Source: an uncultured Neomegalonema sp.
GTDB lineage: Bacteria; Pseudomonadota; Alphaproteobacteria; Rhodobacterales; Rhodobacteraceae
DNA length: 35,191 bases
Assembly (NCBI GenBank): GCA_937927905.1
Contig: CALFWP010000143.1
Location: forward strand, 1 to 35,191
Direction of reading: 5' to 3'
A model generated the notes under the pieces. It saw nothing but the letters and a program-made list of their open reading frames with translations. It made no database searches and was not told the origin of the DNA. Within the stretch, counting starts at the first letter, position 1; each line of letters starts with the position of its first letter. The position numbers were made by a program, and so were the translations under genes. Positions 1,483 through 3,578 of this stretch are shown here, in pieces.

Positions 1483-1555
1483 AGTGTCCTTATCCTTTGT
1501 TCCGCACTTGCAATGCGATTCGTCCTGAGTCACGCTCCTTTTATCGGAAATCAGT

Positions 1556-1571
1556 GAAAGGAGGTGATCCA
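1556..1571 (+). promoter_or_regulatory. Extended Shine-Dalgarno: GAAAGGAGGTGATCCA, perfect 16-nt complement of the 16S rRNA 3' tail (GGATCACCTCCTTTC)
   Basis: Read directly from the sequence. GGAGG lies 7 nt upstream of the ATG at 1572. Confidence 0.7.
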
Positions 1572-1652
1572 ATGTCCAGTGGGAATAAGGTCGGTCAGGC
1601 CAAAGGAATGATGACGGCGGAGCGCTTCTTAACCGGAGCTGCCATCTGCTGA
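1572..1652 (+). CDS. Candidate small ORF, 26 aa: MSSGNKVGQAKGMMTAERFLTGAAIC
   Basis: ATG 1572, TGA 1650-1652; very strong SD at optimal spacing; followed by an intrinsic terminator. Not in the supplied ORF track because it is short. Confidence 0.6.
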   Translation: MSSGNKVGQAKGMMTAERFLTGAAIC

Positions 1653-1660
1653 CACCATTC

Positions 1661-1675
1661 GGTCGGATTCCGACC
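1661..1675 (+). other. Perfect short hairpin GGTCGG-ATT-CCGACC just 3' of the small ORF
   Basis: 6-bp inverted repeat with a 3-nt loop, 8 nt after the stop codon. Confidence 0.55.
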
Positions 1676-1683
1676 ATCCTGCA

Positions 1684-1715
1684 GGGGTTGTGCATTGCAC
1701 AGCCCCTTTTTCTTT
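1684..1715 (+). terminator. Rho-independent terminator of the small-ORF transcript
   Basis: GGGGTTGTGC-ATT-GCACAGCCCC (10-bp stem with one G-U) followed by TTTTTCTTT. Confidence 0.85.
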
Positions 1716-1764: not shown

Positions 1765-3000
1765 ATGGACGCCACCGCACTTGACCTTGATTTCGTTCGC
1801 GCACAATTCCCTGCCTTTACCGCGCCCGAAGCGGATGGCTGGACCCATTTCGAAAATGCCGGAGGGTCTTTTCCCGCATTACAAACGATTGACGCTCTGT
1901 CCGGTTTCTATCGCACAAAAGTTCAGCCCTATGGCGCCGGTCCCAGCGGTGTGCTTGGTGATGCCATGGACCTGGCGCGAACCCGCTGGGCCGAAGCACT
2001 GGGCGTAACGCCGGAAGAGATCGTGTTCGGGCCGTCCACCTCGGCCAACACATATACGCTGGCGCACGCATTCCGCCCGTTACTCAACTCGGGCGAGGAA
2101 ATCATCGTCACAGATCAGGACCACGAGGCCAATTCCGGTGTCTGGCGGCGGATGGCCCATGCACTCGACCTGACCTTACGGGAATGGAAGGTTGATCCGG
2201 TATCGGGGCGTCTTGACCCTGCGGATTTCCATGCCTTGCTGAATGATAAAACGAAACTGGTAACGTTCACCCATTGCTCGAATCTGGCAGGTGAGGAAAA
2301 CCCTGTTGCCGACCTGACCGCAGCGGCACGGGAGGCGGGTGCGTGGAGTGTCGTGGACGGTGTATCCTGGGCTCCTCACGAAATCTGCGACATGAATGAC
2401 CTCGGCGCAGATGTTTATATGTTCAGTCTTTACAAGGTCTACGGTGTACATCAGGGCCTGATGACAGTCCGCACACCACTGATGGAGCGGCTGGAAAACC
2501 AGTCCCATTACTTCAATGCCGGTTCCCCCGCCGCCAAACTCAATCCGGCGGGGCCGGATCATGCCCAGGTTGCCGCAACCATCGGAACCCTGAACTATAT
2601 TGAGGCGCTGGCCGCTCATCACGGCGTGGACAGCAATGACCTGCATGGACAGGTGCGGACCGTCTCTGCCCTCTGGCGCGCACAGGAACAGGCTGTGACA
2701 GCGCCATTACTCGACTTTCTGGACGGACATCCGAACGTGCGTCTCATCGGTCCCGCTGAAGTCAGCACCCGCCGCGCGCCGACCGTTGCATTCATGCCCT
2801 CCAAAATCCTGCCCCCCGATCTGGAAAAGCATCTCGGGGAACAGGGCTTTATCACCGGTGCCAACGATTTTTACGCGCGGCGGCTTGTTGAGGCCCTCGG
2901 GCTTGACGCGGATATCGGCGTGATGCGCGCCTCCATGACCCATTACACCCGCACGGAAGATGTGATGCGCCTGATCAGCGCGCTGGATGCCGTATTGTGA
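1765..3000 (+). CDS. Class V aminotransferase fold protein (cysteine-desulfurase-like, NifS/Csd superfamily)
   Basis: PLP-fold motifs: FGPSTSANTYTLAHAF, VVDGVSWAPHE, FSLYKVYGVHQG (PLP lysine), C-terminal MTHYTRTEDVMRLISAL. Start chosen at MDATALDLDFVRAQFPAF. Confidence 0.8.
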   Translation: MDATALDLDFVRAQFPAFTAPEADGWTHFENAGGSFPALQTIDALSGFYRTKVQPYGAGPSGVLGDAMDLARTRWAEALGVTPEEIVFGPSTSANTYTLAHAFRPLLNSGEEIIVTDQDHEANSGVWRRMAHALDLTLREWKVDPVSGRLDPADFHALLNDKTKLVTFTHCSNLAGEENPVADLTAAAREAGAWSVVDGVSWAPHEICDMNDLGADVYMFSLYKVYGVHQGLMTVRTPLMERLENQSHYFNAGSPAAKLNPAGPDHAQVAATIGTLNYIEALAAHHGVDSNDLHGQVRTVSALWRAQEQAVTAPLLDFLDGHPNVRLIGPAEVSTRRAPTVAFMPSKILPPDLEKHLGEQGFITGANDFYARRLVEALGLDADIGVMRASMTHYTRTEDVMRLISALDAVL

Positions 3001-3578
3001 GAATTGTCGGTGGACGTTTCAAAGGCCGTATGATTGCGGCGCCGGAGGGGGATGGAGGCATTGCGCGGCTGCGCCCGTCCTCCGACCGGTTACGCGAAGC
3101 GGTGTTCAACCTGCTGGCGCACGGGGGGTATCCTGATCTGAACGGCGCACGGGTGCTTGATCTGTTTGCCGGAACCGGTGCCATGGGGCTGGAGGCATTG
3201 TCACGCGGCGCGGCACGGGTGCAATTTGTTGATGAGGGGGCAGAGGCCCGCGCCCTGCTGCGCCGCAATATCGAAGCCTTTGATGTAATAGGCGAGACGA
3301 AAATCTACCGCCGCGATGCAACACGGCTCGGGCCGAACCGCAGCGGGGGCTTCGGCTTTCTGTTTCTGGACCCGCCCTATCATAAGGGCCTCGGGGATGA
3401 CGCGGTCCTTTCGGCTCTGGATGGCGGATGGCTGGCACCCGGGGCCGTCATCATTCACGAAACCCATACGGACGAGACACCCGCAACGGAAAAACGCCTT
3501 TCAACAGTTGATGAAAGGCGCTACGGCAAGTGTAAAGTCACGATCAGCCGTGTGATTACAACGTCTGAAGACGCGTGA
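2997..3578 (+). CDS. rsmD: 16S rRNA (guanine(966)-N2)-methyltransferase RsmD
   Basis: MRIVGGRFKGR start, VLDLFAGTGAMGLEALSRGA, FLFLDPPY (DPPY motif). GTG start overlaps the upstream stop (GTGA). Confidence 0.93.
   Translation: MRIVGGRFKGRMIAAPEGDGGIARLRPSSDRLREAVFNLLAHGGYPDLNGARVLDLFAGTGAMGLEALSRGAARVQFVDEGAEARALLRRNIEAFDVIGETKIYRRDATRLGPNRSGGFGFLFLDPPYHKGLGDDAVLSALDGGWLAPGAVIIHETHTDETPATEKRLSTVDERRYGKCKVTISRVITTSEDA
3490..3520 (-). terminator. Rho-independent terminator for the minus-strand mlaA-mlaC transcript, embedded in the rsmD CDS
   Basis: Minus strand reads CGCCTTTCA-TCAACTGT-TGAAAGGCG-TTTTT (9-bp perfect stem, 8-nt loop, U-tract), about 36 nt beyond the mlaC stop. Confidence 0.75.

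Follow-up and report, generated by a model that had tools for sequence, protein, structure and literature searches.

Layout of the locus

The window, the whole 35,191-nucleotide stretch of Neomegalonema DNA that was analysed, carries a compact element on the plus strand between an aldehyde dehydrogenase gene (SSADH-like, PF00171; 49 to 1482, minus strand) and a gene for a class V aminotransferase or cysteine-desulfurase-like protein (PF00266 and TIGR01976; 1765 to 3000, plus strand), both of which lie outside the unit. The two genes are divergently oriented, as the original prediction had stated, and its account of what lies between them was equally accurate. The 5' arm, GAAAGGAGGTGATCCA (1556 to 1571, plus strand), is a perfect complement of the single-stranded 16S rRNA 3' tail, and the GGAGG within it (1560 to 1564) stands 7 nt ahead of the ATG at 1572. 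The mini-ORF that begins there (1572 to 1652, plus strand) encodes MSSGNKVGQAKGMMTAERFLTGAAIC in 26 codons (1572 to 1649) and is closed by TGA (1650 to 1652). A hairpin, GGUCGG-AUU-CCGACC (1661 to 1675, plus strand), starts 8 nt past the stop and is followed by an intrinsic terminator (1683 to 1711, plus strand) that consists of an 11-pair stem (1683 to 1707) and a run of T. Farther downstream, the gene for RsmD, the 16S rRNA G966 methyltransferase (2997 to 3578), begins within the aminotransferase gene, close to its 3' end, and is two genes away from the anti-16S RNA; this closeness is probably a coincidence.

Anti-16S arm and its distribution

In the collected loci the 15-nt arm core GAAAGGAGGTGATCC, which adjoins an RTG start, was near invariant, although these loci had been gathered by motif search. 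The main change tolerated inside the arm, GGTGATCC to GGTGGTCC (principal internal variant, GGUGGUCC), retains a G:U pair with the 16S tail. A recognisable 16S 3' end was looked for and not found in the window's own assembly (68% complete), so the anti-16S match in this organism rests on relatives: the 16S 3' end of G050, the sole relative whose tail was seen, reads CTGGATCACCTCCTTTCT, and the tail of S. meliloti is the same (PMC6943124). A literature search on the arm motif returned nothing relevant except one 16S oligonucleotide.

Rhizobiales-type ORFs (L053, L054, L056 and L161) contain CTGGATCNTCGCCTC, which mimics the 16S tail CTGGATCACCTCC and is able to base-pair with the arm of the same RNA. 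Rhodobacterales members (L023 to L052) have a C[AG][CT]CTCC motif downstream of the ORF and ahead of the terminator; all its variants can form base pairs with GGAGGTG in the arm, so that the motif is in that sense an internal anti-SD. Pairing of an internal anti-SD with the arm was only weakly better than in shuffles (mean z of -0.6 to -1.4); it was set aside as an explanation and kept as a lead.

The 14-mer AAAGGAGGTGATCC occurred once in the genome of the window, and its reversed control did not occur. The genus was searched with GGAGGTGATCCAATG, one mismatch being allowed, and GGAGGTGATCC[AG]ATG with at most one mismatch was present in 13 of 14 genus genomes; a copy was not detectable in G009, a genus member that is 98% complete. 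Each genus match was followed by a frame of 25 to 26 codons, with the exception of L020 and L022, which are chance matches to the arm, and of L012, where the contig is broken within the element. The 26-aa peptide, used as a query, found matches in genus members only. Across the family, AAGGAGGTGATCCNATGNNNAG with at most one mismatch was found in 127 of 298 genomes, about once per genome and mostly with a GTG start (reversed control, 0). The exact 19-nt pattern was present in 80 of 385 genomes class-wide (reversed control, 0 of 385) and in 65 of 399 genomes phylum-wide, every one of them within Alphaproteobacteria; it was absent from the approximately 260 Pseudomonadota genomes outside that class. 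Positive genomes in a scan of named genomes belonged to Sphingomonadales, Rhizobiales, Acetobacterales, Caulobacterales, Rhodobacterales, and Rhodospirillales. By these sequence counts, the element is far beyond chance. One copy per genome was the rule; G048 holds two copies of the motif (G048:C1:805112 and G048:C1:2922051). Two candidate homologues from outside the class (L098 and L155, titled Phycisphaerales and a beta MAG) were rejected, and chance or binning is their likely origin because the match was mainly confined to the arm.

Membership of the RF01867 (CC2171) family

A search of the window against Rfam at the gathering threshold gave no match. At a permissive threshold RF01867 matched positions 1548 to 1706 over its full length (34.2 bits, E = 1.2e-5), short of its gathering cut-off of 75 bits, and likewise matched relatives from other genera. 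The Rfam consensus contains GAAAGGAGGUGAUCCAGUGUCUCAU, and the features of the family are present in the window: the arm GAAAGGAGGUGAUCCA followed by RUG is identical at 1556 to 1574, the closing helix between the post-start and pre-terminator segments is represented by GUGGGA:UCCUGC, and a 3' intrinsic terminator is the final element. Because membership should not lean on a sub-threshold Rfam match, we built a covariance model, R1, from 16 aligned loci with a structure of P1 and terminator only; the window's genus contributed none of these loci, and Rhodobacterales-type loci whose third codon is AGA were likewise left out. R1 matched the window at 1553 to 1708 with 42.3 bits (E = 1.3e-10), the next-best match in the window scoring 4.3 bits, and it also recovered genus, Rhodobacterales, and Sphingomonadales members, whereas the chance arm matches L020 and L022 gave 11.4 bits and no match, respectively. 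On the R1 result we therefore accepted membership, the 75-bit gathering score of Rfam being a curation threshold and not a biological feature. Members above it include those of Rhizobium (91.5 bits) and Falsiroseomonas (75.5 bits), and a continuum of loci joins these to the window copy. The cut-off was passed by 9 of the 69 genomes matched in the class sample and most members are missed by it. The window locus is thus almost certainly a diverged member of the alphaproteobacterial RF01867 (CC2171) family, and since the Rfam cut-off hides most of that family, standard annotation will probably overlook the RNA as well as its ORF.

CC2171 is said to have been introduced, as a Caulobacter sRNA, by Landt and colleagues in 2008. 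Rfam types RF01867 as 'Gene; sRNA'. In the literature searched, which did not extend to that original paper, RF01867 appeared only in the Rfam 15 paper, in which it gained one covarying pair, and as the predicted sRNA MH_s33 of Mesorhizobium huakuii. The same search found no paper on the anti-16S arm of RF01867 or on its translation, and the novelty of the translated reading is to be taken as 'not found', not as 'proven absent'.

RNA structure

Helix P1 is formed between the bases right behind the start codon and those immediately 5' of the terminator. In the window these are GUGGGA in codons 3 to 5 (1579 to 1584, plus strand) and UCCUGC (1677 to 1682, plus strand). The sequence of P1 differs among lineages, with CAUUGUC:GACAAUG in Rhizobiales and Caulobacterales, CAUGGUUCAG:CUGACCAUG in Sphingomonadales, and GUGAG:CUCAC in others. 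Class-wide, 5 of 7 P1 pairs had changed on both sides, and covariation of P1 and terminator was 0.431, whereas shuffling gave 0.199 and sliding the structure gave no more than 0.127. In a swap test, a locus's own P1 partner beat that of another group at 198 of 206 loci (36/38 in the window's subgroup and 108/110, 34/34, and 20/24 in the others). With compensatory changes and swap test in agreement, P1 is in all likelihood a real helix.

A minimum-energy fold and duplex prediction suggest that P1 can be lengthened by P1b, in which GGUCGG in codons 6 to 8 (1589 to 1594, plus strand) would pair with CCGACC (1670 to 1675); the post-stop hairpin competes with P1b for the same CCGACC. GGTC was found at the P1b position in every listed genus member, and the GGTC..GACC hairpin after the stop in the window and in 6 of 10 other genus loci tested. 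A switch between the local hairpin and P1b was rejected on the grounds that it is conserved in part of the genus only. In Rhodobacterales the start codon also lies within a hairpin, formed by UCCAGUGUC with GAUAUUGGA.

Conservation of the frame and its stop codon

In all, 285 distinct loci were collected, and selection on the stop codon was assessed in the 125 Rhodobacterales-type loci, the genus being too small. A stop was present at codon 19 in 123 of these 125 loci, as TAG (64), TGA (39), or TAA (20) and never as TGG, which was expected 20.3 times if letters 2 and 3 were independent (minimum of 10 in 100,000 shuffles). Codons 2 to 18 were free of in-frame stops, whereas the two other frames contained 46 and 53 and column shuffles gave 7.5. 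The stop pattern does not represent one inherited state, because approximately 55 single-base steps among stop codons, none of them to TGG, were needed on a rough tree, a count that may be inflated since the tree was built on approximately 170 nt. In Sphingomonadales the stop at codon 19 was found in 30 of 33 loci, and in the other large groups frame 0 mostly ended at 20 to 26 codons. The original prediction had staked itself on conservation in related genomes, and the outcome was the opposite of what would have counted against it: the SD is near invariant class-wide, and the frame and the stop are conserved. It is very likely that the ORF is translated; the evidence for a translated and terminated frame is strong in relatives and extends to the window by homology.

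For C. crescentus, Schrader et al. (2014) report that two earlier ncRNAs, which their text does not name, are translated and other ncRNA regions are not; the CC2171 RNA could fall on either side of that split. In MSS-type members (L036, L084, L087, and L142), GGAGCARCCTC (peptide EQP) is shared before the stop, and in Rhodobacterales a similar GGGCARCCC lies directly past it.

Divergence of the encoded peptide

The proposal of a microprotein was not borne out, the peptide being lineage specific past the first few residues and its variable codons lacking third-position bias. Entropies of the variable codons at positions 1, 2, and 3 were about equal (1.41/1.46/1.21 and 1.21/1.35/0.97), and amino acids were not conserved above nucleotides. 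Among nearest neighbours in Sphingomonadales, single-base codon changes numbered 26, 27, and 8 at positions 1, 2, and 3, which is the reverse of the pattern of a protein under selection. Rhodobacterales showed a modest third-position excess (107, 97, and 153 changes), to which the four-fold codon 2 and codon 11 may contribute a large part. The peptides of the different orders read VSRxxLExGVGT, MSHGSA, VSHCH, VSFTKRCHLAGIAR, and MSS. The terminal Cys, which had been thought suggestive, is unique to this window and is replaced by Ser in the nearest relatives, within its own genus; a functional role for it was rejected. The peptide itself is probably unimportant. We conclude that selection keeps ribosome loading, a fixed stop, and the RNA fold and leaves the amino acids largely unselected.

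Transcription unit and genomic neighbours

Of the 285 loci, 194 had a -10-like element that ended 34 to 38 nt 5' of the start codon, a peak that was missing in shuffles, and 254 had a recognised terminator. On account of this class-wide -10 peak and of the terminators, the RNA is predicted to be its own transcription unit, and the position of the -10 element places the start site approximately 30 nt upstream of the start codon. A promoter scan of the window found none. The element at the class-wide position lies 35 nt ahead of the start codon in the window and is weak by consensus; the probable promoter (1508 to 1536, plus strand) comprises TTGCAA (1508 to 1513), 17 nt, and CACGCT (1531 to 1536), from which we infer a transcription start near 1543. 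The predicted transcript stands alone and has approximately 165 nt, its terminator lying 50 to 60 nt before the next gene.

The genes around the RNA vary. Within the genus, one subgroup lies between the aldehyde dehydrogenase and aminotransferase genes and another beside a UbiD-like gene; loci L003 to L021 occupy these two different genomic sites, with a single copy per genome. The downstream gene was not the same across members, differing between orders and within the genus, and a cis-acting leader of the aminotransferase gene was rejected because other genus members have other neighbours. A steady neighbour was found only in Rhodobacterales, where an arfB-type RF-1 domain lies downstream in 97 of 125 loci; the ArfB identity comes from an NCBIfam match just under its cut-off on a partial sequence. 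ArfB is a ribosome rescue factor, and in those loci the RNA is directly upstream of its gene. A gene for a queuosine precursor transporter (Vut_1/YhhQ) is often found upstream of the RNA and arfB in Rhodobacterales (L024 to L052 and L202 to L295).

Proposed mechanism

Promoter position, a structured RNA, a translated ORF, an own terminator, and the lack of a fixed neighbour class-wide together favour a self-contained unit and, by the same features, a dual-function sRNA, both of them among the descriptions that had been offered for this locus. The best explanation, which we consider moderately probable, is a structured RNA or riboregulator of the RF01867 family that is gated by translation.

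The gating step, which is deduced from the geometry of the RNA, is in itself somewhat less likely than not. The length of the arm exceeds what a start site requires, and we know of no conserved natural SD longer than that of RF01867. 30S subunits may dock through the extended SD:anti-SD duplex, whose strength would suffice for invasion of the folded RNA. P1 would have to open because the footprint of the initiating ribosome would cover it, and because initiation opens P1, 'ribosome loaded' and 'P1 closed' would be exclusive states of one molecule. The state of the 3' half would then be set by translation to the fixed stop and not by the peptide, the 3' half becoming active or exposed according to ribosome traffic, and the RNA could act in trans, or be stabilised or destroyed, depending on how easily it is translated. 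A bolder and rather doubtful extension is a class-wide ribosome-status sensor, an RNA translated only to be remodelled, in which docking through base pairs along the whole 16S tail and a halt at a fixed codon would make ribosome availability the ligand that switches the 3' half.

If this reading is correct, an orphan class-wide 'sRNA' family would be a translated RNA in which selection acts on the act of translation and not on its product. The RNA would also be a model for competition between extended SD pairing and mRNA folding, and might serve to sense free 30S subunits; a ribosome-status sensor, if true, would be a kind of regulatory RNA hitherto undescribed.

Alternative explanations

The arm could serve as a decoy that sequesters free 30S subunits or shields the 16S tail, for instance against other mRNAs, Era, or 3'-end processing, with translation being secondary. 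Its near-invariant complementarity spans the entire single-stranded 16S tail and also covers GAUCACCUCC, the sequence recognised by Era according to a title cited in PMC6943124; however, a single gene copy per genome fits titration poorly and the selected stop codon and open frame are left unexplained, which makes this reading unlikely. Slightly less probable still is a cis-acting attenuator in which leader ORF and terminator control the downstream gene, arfB in Rhodobacterales and the aminotransferase gene here. The layout resembles that of a leader peptide, with the terminator close ahead of the next gene in the window, and an arfB-type RF-1 domain follows at most Rhodobacterales loci, but the terminator is retained in most loci and neighbours vary between orders and even between the two genus subgroups.

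A highly expressed microprotein, whose long SD would maximise synthesis of a functional peptide of 14 to 30 aa, could account for the conserved frame and stop and for the recurrence of lineage motifs such as VSRxxLExGVGT. We regard it as improbable, and rejected a microprotein family, given that variable codons are free of third-position bias, that the residues which are conserved fall on nucleotides that are themselves conserved or base-paired, that class-wide conservation of the peptide ends after M/V-S, that relatives do not share the terminal Cys, and that neither Pfam nor NCBIfam gave a match; it is the unconserved amino acids and the window-only Cys on which the microprotein reading fails. 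A plain noncoding sRNA with an accidental ORF, as the Rfam type has it, would suit the strong RNA covariation but is very improbable in view of the fixed stop position, the use of TAG, TGA, and TAA with no TGG, and the frame free of stops. Most improbable of all is a sponge or target of anti-SD sRNAs, in which the GGAGG arm would pair with CCUCC-bearing sRNAs in a network like that of CrfA and SisA: four Hfq sRNAs of C. crescentus do share an anti-SD-signature 10-mer and are antagonised by a sponge (PMC12559287), but the conserved arm runs on through GAUCC, fitting the 16S tail, and the codon constraint would be unexplained. None of titration, attenuation, and sponging covers the stop constraint, the freedom of the peptide, and the changing neighbours together, and a mixture is possible.

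Comparison with known systems

The ORF of Pos19 of R. sphaeroides is different from the mini-ORF of the window and longer. The window RNA resembles Pos19 in being an sRNA-sized coding transcript found in Rhodobacterales, from which Pos19 is set apart by its RpoE stress induction (PMC5036791). With the dual-function sRNA rnTrpL/peTrpL of S. meliloti (PMC10117765), the window RNA shares its short length, alphaproteobacterial origin, translated mini-ORF, and terminator. rnTrpL, however, starts leaderless at the trp attenuator and encodes an active peptide (PMC10117765 and references therein), whereas in the window RNA the SD is extreme, the downstream gene is not fixed, and the peptide is not conserved.

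The closest likeness is to RF01867/CC2171, which shares the arm GAAAGGAGGUGAUCCA with RUG, the order of P1 and terminator, and a full-length model match. The window copy differs in scoring far below the gathering cut-off, in having GUGGGA in place of CAUUGUC in P1, and in its 26-codon ORF; Rfam records no ORF for the family, as far as the search outputs show. In S. aureus, a start-codon-proximal extension of the SD selects weak GUG starts and G:U pairs are tolerated (PMC13009471). The window RNA and its relatives are similar in their start-proximal extension, GUG starts, and tolerated G:U, and the pairing logic of S. aureus fits the A-to-G arm variant of RF01867-type loci. In S. aureus, however, the extension amounts to 2 extra pairs in ordinary mRNAs, whereas in the window RNA 15 of 15 positions pair, in a small structured RNA conserved throughout the class.
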